Under the pieces are notes generated by a model. That model had not been told where the DNA came from and made no database searches. It was given only the letters and a program-made list of their open reading frames with translations. Positions 13,051 to 25,344 of a DNA stretch of 64,000 bases are shown here, piece by piece. The DNA lies in the NCBI RefSeq assembly GCF_023973145.1, contig NZ_CP099546.1, forward strand, positions 1,302,001-1,366,000, given 5' to 3'. A program made the position numbers and the translations under genes. Each line of letters begins with the position of its first letter. Within the stretch, counting starts at the first letter, position 1. The DNA comes from Natronosalvus vescus (GTDB lineage: Archaea > Halobacteriota > Halobacteria > Halobacteriales > Natrialbaceae).

Positions 13051-14751
13051 TCATCGAACCCGAGCCACGTCGCTCGGCCCGTACTCGACGGCGCGGTCGA
13101 GCCGTTTAGCAGCCAGTTCGCGAAGCTCCTCGCGAGTCATGTCGCCGGCGAGGAGCGCCTCGACGTTGTCGCGAAGTTGCTCGGCGGCGAGCGTATCCGG
13201 AACGGCGACGAAGAGCGCGCCTCGCTCGAGCAGGTCGACCCCCGACTCGACGTTGACTGCGCGGACGATCGTATTGCTCCCGACCTCGAGCGAGAGGACG
13301 TGTTTGGCCCACGCTCGGCGGGGCGTCGTGGCGACGATGAGGGCGGCTTCGTCCGCTCGAGCCACCGCCCAGGTGGCGTCGGCCATGGTGTCGCCGAAGA
13401 CGTAGTTGTCACAGGCCTTCCGAACCTGATCGCGCCGATTGGGATCGGTTTCGATCACCAGGTAAGGGTGATCGAGTTCCTCACAGACGGCGACGAGCTG
13501 TTTCCCCTCGCGGTCGAAGCCGGTGATGATGACGTGTTCCGCGAGGTCGTCGGGAACCCGACTCGCCCGGGCGATGGATTCGTGAGATGCGGTGAGCAGC
13601 TCTCGACCGACGAGTTGGCGGTACCAGTCCTCGGCGTATCTGGAGATCGCTACCGAGCCGAGCATGGTGATGATCGCCGCGAGGACGATCGCATCGAAGA
13701 GGGCTTCCACGAGCAATCCGGCCACCAGCGCCTCGATCGCGATGATGAGCGCGAACTCGCTGACCTGATCGAGGCTATAGCCGGTCAGGAAGGCCGTCCG
13801 GGAGTCGTACCCGCGCCAGCGAAGGCTCCCGTAGATGACCAGCGGGTTGAGGACGACGATGACGGCGACGAGGACGGCGGCGACGCCCACCGTCTCGAGG
13901 GCGACAACCGGTGCCGACAGCAGCGGGAACGTGAGGAACGCGCCGACGGTGACGAAGAAGATCGGGGCGAAGAAGTCCTCGAGCGAGCCGATGGCGTCCA
14001 CGACGCCGATGTCGTGAGGGTACTCCGAGGTGACGGCGAGGCCGGCGGCGAACGCGCCGACGACGATCGAGACGCCGGTCAGTTCGGCGAGGGCGACGAA
14101 GCCGATGATGAGCGAAATCGCGGTGAGCATCAGAATCTCGACGTCTCCGTCGGCGAGCGTCGCGACTCGATCGAACACGAACCGACGGAAGGCAAGCGCA
14201 CCGACGAGCAGACCCACACCAGCGAGCATCGTGAGAACGGTGCCGTCCGTGTAGACGACGGCGTGTAACACGAGGATGATGAGAATCGCGGCCACGTCCT
14301 CGACGAAGTGGAGGGCTTCGGCGAGTCGTTCGTGGAGGGAACGGAGTCGAACCCGACGCTCGAGGAGGCTCAACGCGACCAGCGACGAACTCAGGGTGCC
14401 AGCGATGGCGAAGTAGACCGCCTGAAGTCCGGTAAACCCGACGAGATGGGCGGCCGCGTACGTAATCGTCCCGGTGACCGTTATCTGTACGACGCCGACG
14501 AGCCAGGCGTCTCGTCCCAGCGTTTCGTCGGAGAGCGGCTCGAACTGGACGGCGAACGCGAACACGAGGAACGCGATCCCCCACTGAGCGAGATCGAAGA
14601 GCTGTCCCTCGTCGATGAAGCCACCGATGAACACGCCGGCGAGCACGTAAAACGGTACCGTCGGGAGCGAGTAGCGACTGGCGACGACGAGCAAGACCGC
14701 GGCGACGCTGAAGATCAGGGTCAGCGCGACGATGAACTCGTACTCGCTCAT
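13051..14751 (-). CDS. CPA2-family cation:proton antiporter with TrkA-N domain (second of pair)
   Basis: 566-residue protein starting MSEYEFIVALTLIFSVAAVL (a GTG three codons upstream is possible). About 12 membrane helices span residues 1-380 in the KefB/Nha-like Na+/H+ exchanger fold, with AGVFIGGFIDEG and GTLSSSLVALSLLERR typical of CPA2 proteins. The C-terminal RCK/TrkA-N Rossmann domain begins near 410 (HVIITGFDREGKQL) and includes ETDPNRRDQVRKA and GDTMADAT, the usual nucleotide-binding pattern. A role in K+ or Na+ efflux gated by NAD(H) or a nucleotide is expected. The gene lies 82 bp downstream of a paralogous antiporter gene on the same strand. Confidence 0.92.
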   Translation of the reverse strand: MSEYEFIVALTLIFSVAAVLLVVASRYSLPTVPFYVLAGVFIGGFIDEGQLFDLAQWGIAFLVFAFAVQFEPLSDETLGRDAWLVGVVQITVTGTITYAAAHLVGFTGLQAVYFAIAGTLSSSLVALSLLERRVRLRSLHERLAEALHFVEDVAAILIILVLHAVVYTDGTVLTMLAGVGLLVGALAFRRFVFDRVATLADGDVEILMLTAISLIIGFVALAELTGVSIVVGAFAAGLAVTSEYPHDIGVVDAIGSLEDFFAPIFFVTVGAFLTFPLLSAPVVALETVGVAAVLVAVIVVLNPLVIYGSLRWRGYDSRTAFLTGYSLDQVSEFALIIAIEALVAGLLVEALFDAIVLAAIITMLGSVAISRYAEDWYRQLVGRELLTASHESIARASRVPDDLAEHVIITGFDREGKQLVAVCEELDHPYLVIETDPNRRDQVRKACDNYVFGDTMADATWAVARADEAALIVATTPRRAWAKHVLSLEVGSNTIVRAVNVESGVDLLERGALFVAVPDTLAAEQLRDNVEALLAGDMTREELRELAAKRLDRAVEYGPSDVARVR

Positions 14752-14833
14752 CGTAGACACCTCCAGCCGACGATGTCTCTCCCATCTGCGCCGTCTCTAC
14801 TACCGTTCTTCTCGTCGACTTTCGTCGCTCGCA

Positions 14834-16576
14834 TCACCAATCACCTCCGGTCGTGTCCGTGGTCGTCCCGCCGCGACGGGGTGGCCGCTCCCCTCCGGTT
14901 GCGCGGTCGCGAAGCGCCGACATCGCGTCGGTCGCCGACCGGTCGAAACGTGACCGATCCTCGAGGAACGATCGGACGTACTCCCCGAGCATCTCCCCGG
15001 CCAGCACGGATTTGATGACGACGTAATCGGCACCCGCGTCGTACTGCTCGCGGGCCTCGGTGACGTGTTCGGCTGACGTGATCACGACCGCGTCGTCGTC
15101 GGCGGCCTCGACGAGTTGCCGATTGACCGAACCCGGCCGAGCCATCGAAAGCACGAACGCAGCCCCCTCGATACCGATGTCGTCTCGAATCTCGCCGTGA
15201 CGGACATCGCCGTAATGAAAGTCCACGTCGAGCGACCGCAACTCCTCGACGGTGTCGGCCGAGCGGTCGACGACGACGACCTCCTCGAATTTGCCTTGGA
15301 TCACGGGGAGCGTTTCCCTGACCACTGGGTCGTACCCGACGATCACCGCGTGATCGGTCTTCGGTTCGAGCGCCGAATCGCGTCCCTCGTCGTCGATGAA
15401 CCGCTCGAGGACGGGTTTGGCCATCCGATAGAGGCGCTCGTTGTAGCGGATGATGTACGTCGAGAGGGTCATCGTGAGCAGGGCCATCAGGCTCAGATAG
15501 CCGAGCACCGGCTCCTCGACCAGTTCCTGGCCGACGGCGAGCGTCCCGACGACGAGCGAGAACTCGCTGACCTGTACCATGTTGACCGATCCGAGAAACG
15601 CAGTGTCGGGGGCGAAGTTTTCCCGGTCGATCAGGTACAGCATGATCAGGAAGTTGCCGATCATGAGCGCCGCCGAGGCCAGCACCGCTTCGCTCCAGTA
15701 CGCGGCGAGATACGCCGCCTCGAGCTGGAGGCCGATGCTCGAGAAGAAGACGACGAGAAAGAAGTCAGTCACCGGCCGCATCCGCTCTTTGAGCTCCGTG
15801 CTGTAGGGGAGTTGTGCGAGGCTGAGCCCGGCGATGAACGCCCCGACTTCGACCGAGAGGTCGAGGGATTCGGCGACGAAAATGAACACGAACGCCCAGG
15901 CGATACCGACGACGAAGAGTGCGTTCCGGTCGCTCGCGACGGCGTCGAGCAGTGGTGGCAACACGTACCGGTAGGCGACGAACGCGGCGATGCCGATAGC
16001 GGCCATGAGTCCGAAAATTCTCGCGACGTCGGTGAGCAAGGCACCCGCTGGCCCCTCGAGTCCGGCCCCGACCAGCGCGAGGACGATCACGAGGTAGATG
16101 TCCTGGACGATGAGGACGCCGACGTCGATGCGCCCGTGGATCGTTTTCAACGCGTCCTGTTCGTCGAGGAGTTTGACGATCACCGGCGTCGCCCCGAAGA
16201 CGGTCGCCAGGGCGATGACGACGACGTCCATCCCGCGAAACCCGAGGAAAAACGCGATGGCGAACGCTGCCGCTGTCTGGAGGATCGTCTGGCCGATCGA
16301 GATCCTGATGATGGGGCGAAGGATGTCCCGAATGCGATCGAAGCGCATCTCGATGCCGAGGACGAACAACAGGAATCCGAGCCCCAGTTCGGCCATCACG
16401 TCGATCAGGGCGTCCTCGGTAACGATGCCGAACAGAACCGGGCCGAGTACGATGCCAGTAACGATGTACGCGACGATGGTCGGTTGGCCTGTCGCCCGGG
16501 CAACGTAGCTCAAGACCGTCGCTGTGACGATGATGATCGCGAAATCGGCCGCGAGCGCAATTCCACCGAGTGTCAT
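14834..16576 (-). CDS. CPA2-family cation:proton antiporter with TrkA-like domain (first of pair)
   Basis: 580-residue antiporter starting MTLGGIALAADFAIIIVTAT. The membrane domain (residues 1-385) shows the CPA2 pattern: GQPTIVAYIVTGIVLGP, ELGLGFLLFVLGIEM and ATVFGATPVIVKLLDEQ. The C-terminal domain starts near 413 with HAVIVGYDPVVRETLPVIQG, which aligns with TrkA-N but lacks the usual Gly-x-Gly-x-x-Gly. VVVDRSADTVEEL and HYGDVRHGEI are still present. Nucleotide binding may therefore differ from the downstream paralogue. The tail after about 555 is Gly/Arg/Thr-rich and low in complexity. The pair may form a two-gene unit with differently gated exchangers. Confidence 0.92.
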   Translation of the reverse strand: MTLGGIALAADFAIIIVTATVLSYVARATGQPTIVAYIVTGIVLGPVLFGIVTEDALIDVMAELGLGFLLFVLGIEMRFDRIRDILRPIIRISIGQTILQTAAAFAIAFFLGFRGMDVVVIALATVFGATPVIVKLLDEQDALKTIHGRIDVGVLIVQDIYLVIVLALVGAGLEGPAGALLTDVARIFGLMAAIGIAAFVAYRYVLPPLLDAVASDRNALFVVGIAWAFVFIFVAESLDLSVEVGAFIAGLSLAQLPYSTELKERMRPVTDFFLVVFFSSIGLQLEAAYLAAYWSEAVLASAALMIGNFLIMLYLIDRENFAPDTAFLGSVNMVQVSEFSLVVGTLAVGQELVEEPVLGYLSLMALLTMTLSTYIIRYNERLYRMAKPVLERFIDDEGRDSALEPKTDHAVIVGYDPVVRETLPVIQGKFEEVVVVDRSADTVEELRSLDVDFHYGDVRHGEIRDDIGIEGAAFVLSMARPGSVNRQLVEAADDDAVVITSAEHVTEAREQYDAGADYVVIKSVLAGEMLGEYVRSFLEDRSRFDRSATDAMSALRDRATGGERPPRRGGTTTDTTGGDW

Positions 16577-16766: not shown

Positions 16767-16789
16767 CGCCGGAACCAAACGACGGTCGT

Positions 16790-17617
16790 ATGCGTGAGGA
16801 GGCGACGGCGTTCGTACCGGGGCACATCACGGGGTTTTTCAGCGCGCACCCAAACGACGATCCGACGAAAGCTGGTTCTCGCGGCGCCGGGGTAACGCTC
16901 ACAGATGGCGTGGAGGTCACCGTCCAGCGAGCGGACGAACCGACGCTACTCCTCGATGGGGAGCCAGTCGAGATCGAGCCCGTCCGAATAGTGCTCGAGG
17001 CGCTCGAGGCACCCGCACGGGTCGAAGCGACGTCGTCGCTCCCGATCGGTGCGGGCTTTGGCGTGTCGGGGGCGACGGCGCTCGGGACGGCGCTCGCTGC
17101 CAACATCGTCTTCGACCGGACGCTGTCGTACAACGAACTGGTGACGATCGCTCACGGCGCCGAGGTACAGGCCGGAACCGGACTGGGGGACGTCGTCGCG
17201 CAGGCTCACGGGGGCGTCCCGATCCGACTCGAGCCGGGGGCACCCGCCCACAACGTTATCGATGCCGTGCCGGCGCGGGCCCGGGTCGAGTACGTGTCTT
17301 TCGGCGAACTGTCCACCGCGACGGTCCTTACGGGCGATACCGACCAGCTGTCGGCGGCCGGCCAGGAGTCACTGTCGTTGCTCGTCGACGAACCGACGCT
17401 CTCATCATTTATCTACGCCTCGCGTCGATTTACGCGCGAAGCGGGACTCCTCACCCCGGACGTGCAGGGGGCACTCAAGGACGTGGCCGCCGTCGACGGG
17501 CAGGCGTCGATGGCGATGCTCGGTAACACGGTGTTCGCCCTCGGAACCGGTCTCTCGGACGCCGGGTACGAGCCGTCGGTGTGTTCGACGCATCCGGCGG
17601 GGGCGATCCTCAAATAA
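16790..17617 (+). CDS. Pantoate kinase (archaeal CoA biosynthesis, GHMP family)
   Basis: 275-residue GHMP-superfamily kinase that phosphorylates pantoate to 4-phosphopantoate, replacing bacterial pantothenate kinase in archaeal CoA synthesis. The start MREEATAFVPGHITGFFSAH is characteristic. The ATP-binding GHMP motif appears as SSLPIGAGFGVSGATALG around residues 82-99, and the C-terminal motif as GQASMAMLGNTVFAL. HGAEVQAGTGLGDVVAQAHGG fits the substrate-binding region. The partner enzyme, 4-phosphopantoate-beta-alanine ligase, is encoded 4.5 kb downstream at 22130 rather than adjacent. Confidence 0.93.
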   Translation: MREEATAFVPGHITGFFSAHPNDDPTKAGSRGAGVTLTDGVEVTVQRADEPTLLLDGEPVEIEPVRIVLEALEAPARVEATSSLPIGAGFGVSGATALGTALAANIVFDRTLSYNELVTIAHGAEVQAGTGLGDVVAQAHGGVPIRLEPGAPAHNVIDAVPARARVEYVSFGELSTATVLTGDTDQLSAAGQESLSLLVDEPTLSSFIYASRRFTREAGLLTPDVQGALKDVAAVDGQASMAMLGNTVFALGTGLSDAGYEPSVCSTHPAGAILK

Positions 17618-18007: not shown

Positions 18008-20884
18008 ATGTCTACGCTCCGTGACTTTCATCAAAACCTGTTTCGACTGTACGAACACTACGTGGGGGAACCCGATTCCAAAACGGACGTCTACGGATTC
18101 TGGTTCTTCATCGCCGGCTATTTCATCGGTGCGATCGGTTTGCTGGCCTTCGTCGCCGGCTACGCCGGTGGGGACGCGTTCAACCAGATTCGAGCGTCGG
18201 GCGTTGCGGCTGCGATCGGCCTCGCGCTCTGTCTGTTCGGAATCGTTCTTTTATTGCCCGTCCGAACGCGGGGGATTCAGGCGAGCGTCGTTGGGCTGGT
18301 CGTCGCGCTCGCTGGTGCCATCGCCTTCGGTTTCGTCTATCCAGATCACTGGCGCGGTCACGGGCTCGAGTTGACCGTCGAGGTCGTCACCCTGTATGCG
18401 GCTGGCATCGGGATCATCGCCGGCGTCACCGCGCTCGTCCCCATTATCACCGGACGGAAAGGGATGTTCGTCCGGGAGCAAGGCGAGAGCGAGGATCCAC
18501 CGATTATGACCGGCGACTCACTCGAGGGGGCCCAGTTCGCGGTCTTCCGGAACGAAGCGGGTGACTGGAAGTGGCACGTCCTCCACCTCGAGGCGCTGGC
18601 CGAAAGCGAGGGGAGTACGGTTACACGGCCGGAGACGGAGACGAGCATCGAGAAGGTCAAATCTCAGATCGGGTCGGCTGGCCTGATGGAGCTGACGACG
18701 TCGGCGTTCCGTCTCCACGAGGACCGAGAGGGAACCTGGCAGTGGACGCTGGCCCGGGACGATGGCAGCGTAGTCGGCACCTGTGCGAGTCAGTTCGACC
18801 GCCGTGACGACGCCGAACAGTCGGTCAGCTTCCTCAAAGACCGTGGCCCGGCCGCGGACGTCATCGAGATCGATGGCGCGGCGTTCACGTACACGGAACG
18901 ACGCGACCAGTGGTTCTGGCAGTTGCTCGACGACGACCGTCAGCCGCTGGCCGAAAGCGAGGACGGCTACCGAACCATGGAGGCCGCCGAGACGGCCGCC
19001 CAGACGTTCGCCGAGCGGTTCGATCGGGCCCGTCTGCTCGACATCGACCACGTCGGCGTCGAACTGGAAACGCTCGATGGGGAGTGGTCGTGGCGGTTCG
19101 TCGACGAAACGGACGACGAATTCGCCCAGGCGACGACGACATTCGAGACCAAACGCGCGGCCGAGGACGCCGTGGAAGCGATCCTCGCCGAACTCGGCTC
19201 GGCGGCCATCACCGTTGCGAGCGAGCCCACCTACGAGTGCTACGAGGCGGACGGTGGCTGGCGCTGGCGGCTGGTCGACGGGAACGAACACGTCGTCGCC
19301 ACCACTCCAGACACGCTCGAGGGCTACGGGGCGACCGAGGAAGAAACCGGGCTCTTCGCAGACACCGTCACCAGCGCTGACGTCGTAGAAATCGAGGACG
19401 CAGAGTACGAAATCTTCCCCACCGAACGGCCGACGGCCGCAGATGGTGGCGAACTCCAACCGGTCACGGACGACGATGGCGACGCGGCGGAAGCGACCGA
19501 ACCGACGCCCACGCAGGACTGGCACTGGCGACTCGTCACCGAAGACCGGGATATCATCGCTGCGAGTACGGAAGCACACACCGACGAAGAGACCGCTGGC
19601 GAGGCGATCGAACGGGTTCGTCAGCAAGCCAGCGAGGCCGATCTGATCGAGTTCGAAAACGCCGCATTCCAGGTTTACGAGGCAGACTCCGGCGAGTGGC
19701 GCTGGCGGCTGATCGACGATGACGGCAACGTCCTCGCCGACTCCGGTGAGGAACACACCTCCCGCGGCGACGCGGCCGAAGCGATGATGACACTCAAAGA
19801 GCAGGCCCCAGACGCCGAACTCCTCGAGATCGACACCGCGGCGTTCGAAATCTTCGTCAACGAGGACGACGAGTGGGGCTGGCGGTTGATCGACGAGGCG
19901 GGGAAACTGGTCGCCGAAGACCCGGCCGTACACCCGACTCGAAGCACGGCCAAACAGGCGATGGAGCGCCTGTTGACCCATCTCGACTCGAACGTGCGGA
20001 CGATGGACGACGCCATCTTCCAGACCTACGCCGAGGAGGACTGGCACTGGCGGTTCGTGTTACCAGCGGGCGAGACGGTCGCCGTCGACGCGGAAGCCAG
20101 TTCCACCCGTGACGAACTCGAGCGATCGATCGACGGGATTCGTGAGGCAGCGGCTGCAGGGCAGTGTACGGCCATCGGTGACGTTTCGATTCAACTGTAC
20201 GGCAGCGGCAACGGCGAGTGGCGCTGGCGACTGCTGGATCGGGATCGAACGGTCGTCACCGACGCGAGCCGAAGCTACGACGCCCAGCCACTCGCGGAGA
20301 CCGCAGTCAAGGGCCTCAAGGCGCGCGCAGCGGACGCCCCGATTTTCACGATCGACGAGGCCGCCATTCGGATGACTAACGAGGGCGGCTGGGGCTGGGA
20401 ACTCATCGACCGCGACCGCGAGGTGTACGCGGGCCCCGCCGACTCGAGATCCTCGAAAGCCGACGCGATGGCCGACGTCGAAGCGGTTCGCCGCCTGGCT
20501 CCGATCGCCGGCCGCGTCGACTTCGACGTCGCCTCCTTCGAGCTATTCGCCGCCGAGGACGACCGCTGGCGCTGGCGACTCATCGACGAAAACGGCCAGA
20601 CCGTCGCGACCGGTTCGGAGGGCCACCCTTCGACCGAAGCGGCCCACGAAGCGCTCGATAACGTTCGCGACATCATCGAGAACGCGAGCATTCTCGAGAT
20701 CGACAGTGTCTCCTTCGAACTCCACCGGGCGGAGGAGGCCTGGGTCTGGCGGCTGATCGACACCTACGGCGAGGTGCTCGCCGAGAGCACCCAGAGCTAC
20801 GAACACCGGACGGATGCCAGGGAGGCGATGATGGCGGTCAAAGAACACGCTCCCGAGGGCTGGATTACGTTCACCGACGAGTAG
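18008..20884 (+). CDS. Membrane protein with about 13 tandem DUF1508 repeats
   Basis: 958-codon frame. The N-terminal 165 residues hold about four membrane helices (WFFIAGYFIGAIGLLAFVAG, AAIGLALCLFGIVLLL and two more). From about residue 175 to the end there are some 13 consecutive 55-60 residue units. Each follows the DUF1508 (YegP/HVO_2922-like) pattern: a strand ending in F/Y, then W-x-W-R-L-I/V-D, then a second strand, a helix with A-rich face, and a linker ending I/V-x-I-D. Unit 6 carries a 25-residue acidic, Thr/Pro-rich insert. Some units have W-x-W replaced in part (WSWRF, WVWRL). DUF1508 is a small beta-alpha domain of unknown role, usually in one or two copies. The array is presumably cytoplasmic; no enzymatic motif is visible. 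It separates two CoA-biosynthesis genes. Confidence 0.93.
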   Translation: MSTLRDFHQNLFRLYEHYVGEPDSKTDVYGFWFFIAGYFIGAIGLLAFVAGYAGGDAFNQIRASGVAAAIGLALCLFGIVLLLPVRTRGIQASVVGLVVALAGAIAFGFVYPDHWRGHGLELTVEVVTLYAAGIGIIAGVTALVPIITGRKGMFVREQGESEDPPIMTGDSLEGAQFAVFRNEAGDWKWHVLHLEALAESEGSTVTRPETETSIEKVKSQIGSAGLMELTTSAFRLHEDREGTWQWTLARDDGSVVGTCASQFDRRDDAEQSVSFLKDRGPAADVIEIDGAAFTYTERRDQWFWQLLDDDRQPLAESEDGYRTMEAAETAAQTFAERFDRARLLDIDHVGVELETLDGEWSWRFVDETDDEFAQATTTFETKRAAEDAVEAILAELGSAAITVASEPTYECYEADGGWRWRLVDGNEHVVATTPDTLEGYGATEEETGLFADTVTSADVVEIEDAEYEIFPTERPTAADGGELQPVTDDDGDAAEATEPTPTQDWHWRLVTEDRDIIAASTEAHTDEETAGEAIERVRQQASEADLIEFENAAFQVYEADSGEWRWRLIDDDGNVLADSGEEHTSRGDAAEAMMTLKEQAPDAELLEIDTAAFEIFVNEDDEWGWRLIDEAGKLVAEDPAVHPTRSTAKQAMERLLTHLDSNVRTMDDAIFQTYAEEDWHWRFVLPAGETVAVDAEASSTRDELERSIDGIREAAAAGQCTAIGDVSIQLYGSGNGEWRWRLLDRDRTVVTDASRSYDAQPLAETAVKGLKARAADAPIFTIDEAAIRMTNEGGWGWELIDRDREVYAGPADSRSSKADAMADVEAVRRLAPIAGRVDFDVASFELFAAEDDRWRWRLIDENGQTVATGSEGHPSTEAAHEALDNVRDIIENASILEIDSVSFELHRAEEAWVWRLIDTYGEVLAESTQSYEHRTDAREAMMAVKEHAPEGWITFTDE

Positions 20885-22007: not shown

Positions 22008-22129
22008 TCGTCTCGAGAGAACGGTATAGAGGCTCATAAAGACAGGTTACGGTTCATAGTCCCTGGGTTCTGTTCGGGTATGTCGGTTCGGGTGGGGTCG
22101 ACTCGAGGGCTCCAATCGCGCCGTTTTTG

Positions 22130-22936
22130 ATGACTGCGTTCGATCTAGCAACTGTGAGCGAACACGAGACCGTGCCGGCCGAGGTCGAGGACGAGGAGGA
22201 GATTCCGACGGATCATCCTCGCTACACAGACCTGGTGACGCGTCACCGAATCGAACGCGGGGTCGAGAAGGGGATCACGCACCTCCAGGGGATGCACGCC
22301 GAGGGACGGGGGAGCGCGTTCGACTATCTGCTGGGCGAGGAAACGACGCCCACCGCCGACGAGGCCGAGCGGGCCGCCGCTGCACAGCTGTTACTCGCCG
22401 AGAAGCCCGTCCTCTCGATCAACGGCAACGTCGCCGCGCTGGTGCCCGCCGAGATGGTGGCCCTCGCCGACGCCGTCGACGCCGATCTCGAGGTCAACCT
22501 CTTCAACCGAACGCCCGAACGCATCGATGCTATCGTAAGTCACCTCCGGGAACACGGCGCGACGGACGTCAAAGGGATCGAGGCCGACGCCCGGATTCCG
22601 AACCTCGAGCACGAACGGGCGAAAGTGGATGCGGAAGGGATCTACGCGGCCGACGTTGTCCTGGTTCCCCTCGAGGACGGCGACCGTGCGGAAGCGCTCG
22701 AAGCGATGGGGAAGACCGAAATCGTCATCGACCTCAACCCGCTGTCGCGATCGCCACAGGTCGCCGACGTTCCCATCGTGGACAACATCGTCCGCGCGGT
22801 GCCGAACATCACGGCCCACGCGGAAGCGCTCGAGGGTGACGGCGCGAGCGACGCCGACCTCGAGGCCATCGTCGACGCGTTCGATCGGGAGGCGGCGCTC
22901 GAGGACGCCGAAGCGAGAATTCGAAGTGGCCTCTGA
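22130..22936 (+). CDS. 4-phosphopantoate--beta-alanine ligase (archaeal PPS)
   Basis: 268-residue enzyme joining 4-phosphopantoate to beta-alanine with ATP to give 4-phosphopantothenate, the second archaeal-specific step of CoA synthesis. Family landmarks: IPTDHPRYTDLVTRHRIERG, GITHLQGMHAEGRGSAFDYL, VNLFNRTPERIDAIV, EIVIDLNPLSRSP and VPIVDNIVRAVPNI. The ATG at 22130 is used; a GTG eight codons in (VSEHETV) is an alternative start, since the first 25 residues are variable and acidic. The pantoate kinase gene lies upstream at 16790 with two unrelated genes between. Confidence 0.94.
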   Translation: MTAFDLATVSEHETVPAEVEDEEEIPTDHPRYTDLVTRHRIERGVEKGITHLQGMHAEGRGSAFDYLLGEETTPTADEAERAAAAQLLLAEKPVLSINGNVAALVPAEMVALADAVDADLEVNLFNRTPERIDAIVSHLREHGATDVKGIEADARIPNLEHERAKVDAEGIYAADVVLVPLEDGDRAEALEAMGKTEIVIDLNPLSRSPQVADVPIVDNIVRAVPNITAHAEALEGDGASDADLEAIVDAFDREAALEDAEARIRSGL

Positions 22937-24456: not shown

Positions 24457-25344
24457 TCATCCGGCGAACGGGTCGCGACTGAACGGCGTCTCGAGCACCC
24501 CGAGTTCGGCGGCCGGATCGACCGCGATATCGACGCGCGCGCCGAACTCGAGCGTCCCGACACGGCGGTCGTCGACACAGAGGGTGACGTCGTCGCCCTC
24601 ACGTTCGACCGACAGCGAGAGGCCGTCGTCGGGAAGCACCCAGTGGCGGGTGCGCGTGACGAACGGGGCGATGGGGACGACGGCGAGACCCGATATCGCT
24701 CCCGACAGCGACGGGCCGTCGGCGGCGCTGGCGTAACCGTGGCTCCCCGCTGGGGTAGCGGCGACCACGCCGTCGGCCCGGAACTGTGCGATCTGTCGCC
24801 CGCGGCTGGTGACGCCGTACTCCGAGATGCGAGCCGCTTCGGCGGTCACGAGCGAGACGTCGAACAGCGCGCGGGTTCGGGTTTCCTCGCTCGAGCCAGC
24901 ATCACTCGAGCCAGCGTCACTCGAGCTTGCATCGCTCGAGACCGACAGAAGCGGATACGCTTCGGTGGTGGCTTCCCCAGCAGCGAGCGCGTCGAATGCG
25001 CGCCCCAGCGCATCAGCAGGAATCGGGGAAACGCCCGGGCTGGTGTCGACCGGGAGAACGGGCGACATCGCGGTGGCGTCGGCTCGAGCTACCGCGGTAA
25101 GAGCACTGTCGCCGAGAGCCACGACGAGCGTCGGATCGGCAGCGAGAACGGTGTCGGGCCCACCGGTCACGAGGTCGATGGCATCGTCAGATCCTTCGAA
25201 GCGACCCGCATCGTCGAGCGCGGTGTGAACCAGCGCCGTCGGATCGCTCACACCGTCTGCGTGGGTCGGCGACGCGGTCGCTGGTTCGACGTCGATCACG
25301 CCGATGAGAGGGTCTGGGTCGAGCGTCCACCCGTCGTCGTCCAT
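24457..25344 (-). CDS. Divergent NAD kinase-like protein
   Basis: 295-residue protein related to ATP-NAD kinases. The clearest signature is DGVVAATPAGSHGYASAADGP, matching the family motif DGxxxxTPTGSTAY; PVLPVDTSPG resembles the PVLGVN strand. The catalytic/ATP motif GGDGT is degenerate (VVALGDSALTAVARA), keeping only G-D. A Ser/Ala/Asp-rich insert (SSDAGSSDAGSS) is encoded by a short direct repeat at about 24890-24940. The protein may have lost or altered kinase activity, or act as a regulatory paralogue of the canonical enzyme, which is not in this window. It lies 90 bp downstream of the M28 peptidase gene on the same strand. Confidence 0.82.
   Translation of the reverse strand: MDDDGWTLDPDPLIGVIDVEPATASPTHADGVSDPTALVHTALDDAGRFEGSDDAIDLVTGGPDTVLAADPTLVVALGDSALTAVARADATAMSPVLPVDTSPGVSPIPADALGRAFDALAAGEATTEAYPLLSVSSDASSSDAGSSDAGSSEETRTRALFDVSLVTAEAARISEYGVTSRGRQIAQFRADGVVAATPAGSHGYASAADGPSLSGAISGLAVVPIAPFVTRTRHWVLPDDGLSLSVEREGDDVTLCVDDRRVGTLEFGARVDIAVDPAAELGVLETPFSRDPFAG
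24888..24945 (-). repeat. Short in-gene direct repeat coding a Ser/Asp linker
   Basis: Four near-copies of a 15-nt unit (TCACTCGAGCCAGCA and variants, each with CTCGAG) encode the Ser-Ser-Asp-Ala-Gly-like linker of the NAD kinase-like protein. The frame is preserved, as expected for slippage in a surface loop. Confidence 0.7.

Follow-up and report, generated by a model that had tools for sequence, protein, structure and literature searches.

Thirteen DUF1508 units in fixed order on a DUF7139 membrane anchor: a candidate docking scaffold of haloarchaea

DUF1508 is a widespread domain with several solved structures, and the papers that we searched for DUF1508, DUF7139, HVO_2922 and YegP gave no function for DUF1508. 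A gene of Natronosalvus vescus, in a window of 64,000 nucleotides (the whole stretch of DNA analyzed here), encodes a long tandem array of such domains in one membrane-anchored chain, which raises the question of what so many copies might do together; conversely, an ordered array of 13 units offers a handle on the role of the domain. The domains themselves are already known, and database records carry their names. What goes beyond the preliminary description, which was made from the sequence alone, is the invariant number of 13, the context of coenzyme A (CoA) genes and the likeness to an array in an Anabaena baseplate protein. In the openly accessible papers that we searched, we found no account of the fixed order of 13 units, of paralogs with a swapped anchor, of the CoA locus or of the resemblance to the Cis12 arm.

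The open reading frame encodes 958 amino acids from an ATG start, and its full length is conserved in relatives. Residues 10–151 match DUF7139 (PF23600) with 130 bits against a cut-off of 30, and four membrane helices are predicted in this part both by hydropathy and by AlphaFold2 (H25–53, H58–82, H87–110 and H123–148), in agreement with the membrane-spanning N-terminal segment proposed earlier. Positive-inside evidence weakly suggests that the array lies on the cytoplasmic side, as had also been proposed. Searches with Pfam and NCBIfam gave no enzyme domain and no signaling domain in the protein.

Features of the array gene and its two CoA-synthesis neighbors (window coordinates)
Feature	Position	Strand	Basis
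Pantoate kinase (CoA synthesis), upstream neighbor; start approximate	16775..17617	+	NCBIfam E 7e-55 and 3e-45, both below curated cut-offs; synteny
Whole gene: DUF7139 membrane anchor and 13 x DUF1508	18008..20884	+	ORF, Pfam, W-x-W cores, AlphaFold2, HVO_2922 model
DUF7139 (PF23600), four membrane helices, residues 10-151	18035..18460	+	Pfam E 6.7e-38; hydropathy; AlphaFold2
DUF1508 unit 1 (residues 171-227)	18518..18688	+	Profile score, alignment; dN/dS 0.11
DUF1508 unit 2 (residues 228-285)	18689..18862	+	Profile score, alignment; dN/dS 0.09
DUF1508 unit 3 (residues 286-343)	18863..19036	+	Profile score, alignment; dN/dS 0.21
DUF1508 unit 4 (residues 344-401)	19037..19210	+	Lowest score of the 13 units, 13.8 bits; dN/dS 0.20
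DUF1508 unit 5 (residues 402-459)	19211..19384	+	Profile score, alignment; dN/dS 0.31
DUF1508 unit 6 (residues 460-547), insert in first beta hairpin	19385..19648	+	Profile score, alignment; dN/dS 0.29
Acidic insert of unit 6 (about residues 474-501)	19427..19510	+	Variable; missing from many orthologs; low model confidence
DUF1508 unit 7 (residues 548-606), central, canonical WRWRL...G...DSG	19649..19825	+	73% mean identity; dN/dS 0.062; 67.6 canonical bits
DUF1508 unit 8 (residues 607-662)	19826..19993	+	Profile score, alignment; dN/dS 0.09
DUF1508 unit 9 (residues 663-721)	19994..20170	+	Profile score, alignment; dN/dS 0.23
DUF1508 unit 10 (residues 722-778)	20171..20341	+	Profile score, alignment; dN/dS 0.33
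DUF1508 unit 11 (residues 779-837)	20342..20518	+	Profile score, alignment; dN/dS 0.27
DUF1508 unit 12 (residues 838-895)	20519..20692	+	Profile score, alignment; dN/dS 0.25
DUF1508 unit 13 (residues 896-958)	20693..20881	+	Profile score, alignment; dN/dS 0.09
4-Phosphopantoate--beta-alanine ligase (CoA synthesis), downstream neighbor	22127..22936	+	NF041123 309 bits vs cut-off 300; synteny

First, we analyzed whether the remainder of the chain consists of DUF1508 units. W-x-W cores, 13 in number, lie between residues 187 and 912, and the units measure 56–59 residues, except for unit 6 and the last. Pfam DUF1508 (PF07411) matches with E 3.1e-75 and 248 bits (cut-off 22), and 10 stretches pass singly. 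With a DUF1508 model made only from a separate family of five-unit proteins, all 13 units score 13.8–72.9 bits, above the maximum of 11.3 bits obtained with shuffled units (2,318 scored of 2,600 shuffled). In a whole-genome search, the NCBIfam HVO_2922 model falls at 13 places in the ORF (weakest E 0.27), and elsewhere in the N. vescus genome it finds nothing better than E 0.68. As judged by AlphaFold2, the full chain forms four membrane helices and 13 beta-beta-beta-alpha repeats (mean pLDDT 85.8, pTM 0.59). The preliminary description had counted about 13 units, and had named profile searches of each unit and a structure prediction of the full chain as checks; both bear out the count, which is exactly 13.

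The units have a predicted YegP-like fold of three strands and a helix, matching 3bid with 1.0 Å over 45 residues and 6q2z with a TMt of 0.75. HVO_2922/UPF0339 of Haloferax volcanii (6q2z; unit profile E 2.5e-22) and NMB1088 (3bid) are the same domain, but they are single proteins of ~60 residues, whereas the array joins 13 units in one membrane-anchored chain. YegP of E. coli (2k8e) and SO3888 (2k49) have the same unit fold and, like the array, carry units in tandem, but only two of them. Compared with the packing in 2k8e and 2k49, neighboring-unit pairs reach a TMt of 0.39–0.42 in both of our models, which themselves have a pTM of only 0.59 (full chain) and 0.48 (units 7–8 alone, with low confidence in the arrangement). 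The whole protein scores 291.9 bits against the HVO_2922 equivalog family (NF041908; threshold 90 bits) because its units are summed, none alone exceeding 58.7 bits; that family comprises small one-domain proteins with no membrane anchor, unlike the anchored 958-residue chain. DUF1508 was also matched in the control genomes of E. coli, B. subtilis, Caulobacter, Methanosarcina and Haloferax.

Second, we evaluated whether the number and order of the units are fixed. Of 292 haloarchaeal genomes, 74 encode proteins of the 13-unit kind that match along most of the chain. All 13 units are kept one-to-one in 46 of 46 aligned full-length sequences, which are 34–75% identical to the N. vescus protein; the alignment left out near relatives of included loci, truncated contigs, the frameshifted L147 and L166, and one paralog. 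Counts of 14 units in some proteins probably come from the insert splitting unit 6. The one-to-one mapping of units between families extends to pairs of less than 45% identity, and a recent expansion of the array is therefore rejected. The earlier view of an old array under selection fits both this mapping and the dN/dS values given below. A period-5 signal in unit similarity, which would suggest growth from a five-unit block, has p 0.011 alone but p 0.10 once all the separations tried are corrected for, and is not significant. In Natrinema thermotolerans (L147, 9914–12989) the ortholog breaks near units 4–5 into two frames that overlap, owing either to a frameshift or to a sequencing error.

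Several genomes encode 13-unit proteins without DUF7139, which have one or two predicted membrane helices instead. When eight of these anchor-swapped paralogs were compared with the 13 unit profiles, their units fell on U1 to U13 in order, except that unit 12 of L094 was off order and the first unit of L092 was undetected. The 13 units therefore behave together as a single module in which the repeats are not interchangeable; the array, with its order of units, is older than the duplication and has been joined to two different anchors. One such paralog, whose only annotation is 'DUF1508 domain-containing protein', is carried by plasmid pNMAG02 of Natrialba magadii. A search for conserved neighbors of these paralogs, and of arrays away from CoA genes, gave no lead.

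Third, we compared the constraint on the individual units. All of them are under purifying selection, with dN/dS of 0.06–0.33 over 13 pairs of close relatives, pairs that share species and are not independent: the value is 0.062 for unit 7, 0.085–0.114 for units 1, 2, 8 and 13, and 0.20–0.33 for the rest. Unit 7 has a mean identity of 73%, the others 40–59%. Unit 7 also scores 67.6 bits on average against canonical DUF1508, compared with 22–42 bits for the other units; the middle unit is thus the most constrained, and it alone stays near the canonical sequence. Over the 13 units, the canonical score shows no significant correlation with dN/dS (p 0.17). The array in this way points to unit 7 as the likely functional unit. 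An acidic insert in unit 6 had been described earlier and is indeed present, but it is not supported as a mark of function: the insert comes and goes among orthologs, and we reject a function for it.

A canonical and most constrained unit is what would be expected of a binding site, and the canonical sequence is common to the units of the five-unit DUF7139 family. The protein could accordingly be read as a multi-site sensor, in which a small ligand or a polymer binds to the DUF1508 units and the membrane part relays a signal. We regard such a sensor as unlikely, given that the literature searched yielded no ligand for any DUF1508 protein, that the chain carries no signaling domain detectable with Pfam or NCBIfam, and that an ordered set of 13 dissimilar units exceeds what a sensor needs.

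The five-unit family, composed of DUF7139, a coiled coil and 5 x DUF1508, is represented in 105 of the 292 haloarchaeal genomes. It resembles the 13-unit array in its anchor family, its tandem DUF1508 units and its haloarchaeal distribution, but has five near-canonical HVO_2922-type units, whereas the thirteen of the array are divergent; in three examples, 13 of 15 units resemble unit 7 best. The preliminary statement that DUF1508 proteins usually have one or two copies is thus roughly right but has to make room for these two families. Among 60 genomes sampled from the phylum but outside the class, the DUF1508 matches were confined to small ORFs with a single unit. Over the class, the 13-unit and five-unit families show an anticorrelation (p 4e-5). 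The signal reflects lineage and is gone outside the window's own taxonomic family (p 0.81); mutual exclusion is rejected. In several genomes (L095, L101, L197 and L200), a stop codon between unit 3 and unit 4 interrupts the five-unit gene and leaves a YegP-sized ORF of two units downstream.

Among solved structures, the first-ranked Foldseek match of the array is the extension of Anabaena Cis12 (All3315; PDB 7b5h, E 1e-4), in which tandem DUF1508-like units are also recognized by profile (E 3.8e-5). This extra domain has been described as a wide connector from the baseplate to the thylakoid membrane (PMC8894136); YegP and DUF1508 are not named in the text of that paper that we searched. Cis12, from a thylakoid-anchored contractile injection system, shares tandem DUF1508-like repeats with the array, but there they belong to a baseplate protein. 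With a TM of only 0.05 and a large rmsd, the likeness is one of the repeats and not of the overall shape, and the two shapes cannot be superposed. Pfam and NCBIfam gave no baseplate domain for the array protein, and its identified and conserved neighbors are not contractile injection system genes. In view of the similarity, arrays of DUF1508 may serve more generally as building parts of connectors. DUF1508-like repeats are seen in the injection baseplate proteins 7b5h (All3315, residues 683–1161) and 7aeb/9wsz (Alg12, about residue 600). In a viral structure library, short DUF1508 phage proteins appeared at high probability, none of them with E ≤ 0.001.

The Anabaena membrane connector also bears on a role in envelope or cell-shape architecture, in which DUF7139 would be a general haloarchaeal anchor and the array a spacer arm that holds a structure at a set distance. 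DUF7139 is found in 280 of 292 haloarchaeal genomes with varied cytoplasmic tails, which are zinc-ribbon-like and charged (in the N. vescus genome), a coiled coil with 5 DUF1508, or 13 DUF1508. A role of this kind seems quite improbable to us, since no conserved cell-shape or division gene stands beside the array in the loci examined and the presence of the array across the class is patchy. DUF7139 proteins with a four-cysteine zinc-ribbon-like C-terminal tail (L204, 988–1977; L207, 1018–1965) are kept between Natrialbaceae and Haloferax. The haloarchaeal division protein CdpA, probably HVO_0739, might belong to the DUF7139 proteins; its paper describes it only as a 'predicted membrane protein' with an mRNA of ~1,052 nt.

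The reading that we tentatively favor is a membrane-tethered, cytoplasm-facing docking scaffold of fixed length and position-specific surfaces. The four DUF7139 helices would hold the protein in the membrane, and the 13 units in set order would form a platform on which each unit presents its own surface. Unit 7 and, to a lesser extent, units 1–2, 8 and 13 would be contact sites under the strongest constraint, with units 3–6 and 9–12 serving mainly for spacing and geometry; the scaffold would probably dock or position cytoplasmic proteins close to the membrane. Several observations argue for such a scaffold: (i) the one-to-one retention of the units and their order in the paralogs, (ii) the low dN/dS, (iii) a protein in which Pfam and NCBIfam detect no enzyme domain and (iv) the structural use of a DUF1508-like array in the Anabaena connector. 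Against it stands the restricted distribution of the array, which makes it dispensable at the level of the class, and the moderate AlphaFold2 confidence between units speaks against reading an elongated shape from the models. Both a closed, ring-shaped array and a sensor with several sites would likewise be compatible with a fixed repeat number. The A subunit of PP2A and similar repeat scaffolds have a set number of dissimilar repeats with position-specific surfaces; the comparison concerns only how they work, the folds being unrelated, and no membership is claimed.

Finally, the position of the gene hints at possible partners. Its neighbors, encoding pantoate kinase and 4-phosphopantoate--beta-alanine ligase, represent two steps of archaeal CoA synthesis. 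Both enzyme genes lie within 7 kb of the array and on the same strand in 27 of 33 array genomes (one of which, G130, holds a remnant), and within 1 kb in 18; array-to-ligase gaps are 43–160 bp in many of the 33. A neighborhood survey had been named earlier as a further check, and it thus reveals the conserved gene association that an accessory protein of CoA biosynthesis would be expected to have. The kinase–array–ligase order recurs in Natrialbaceae, Halorientalis, Salinarchaeum and Halorubellus, and where the enzyme pair is split (G033, G103 and G115) the array still adjoins one of the two. The array might, on this evidence, bind the kinase and/or the ligase, or an intermediate, and so localize or regulate CoA synthesis at the membrane.

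Other features of the same neighborhood make us consider such a CoA-pathway factor unlikely. In 60 of 100 genomes that lack the array, the kinase and ligase genes lie immediately side by side, so the pathway works without it. The array is away from both genes in G049, G078 and G088 of the 33 genomes, and also in Haloferax marinum and Halosimplex. The array tree follows taxonomy, and array distances correlate with those of both enzymes (r 0.72 and 0.78); inheritance in place can therefore explain the gene order without a functional link. In N. vescus, 390 bp separate the kinase gene from the array gene, which has its own TATA-like element (TTTATTA at about 17967) and a T-run past the stop, both read by eye, and an opposite-strand gene precedes the ligase. 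A functional link between the array and CoA synthesis is possible. The combined reading, a 13-position membrane scaffold, so far seen only in haloarchaea, that brings pantoate kinase together with phosphopantoate--beta-alanine ligase at the membrane, we consider very unlikely; if true, it would be the first biological role for DUF1508. Natural comparisons are supplied by the anchor-swapped paralogs and the five-unit family, and CoA synthesis is a testable pathway.

The remnant in G130 (contig C10; L103, 8168–8563) comprises about two units with one internal TAG and lies between pantoate kinase and ligase, which indicates loss in place. Elsewhere in the window, two adjacent genes resembling Kef-type transporters, identified by reading, lie between aspS and pantoate kinase (13051–16576, minus strand), and the pair is found at the same place in two other loci (L130 and L146). 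A gene at 24457–25344 (minus strand) shows partial similarity to NAD kinase, with an E of 1e-16 that is far below the cut-offs, and possibly encodes a divergent NAD kinase-like protein.
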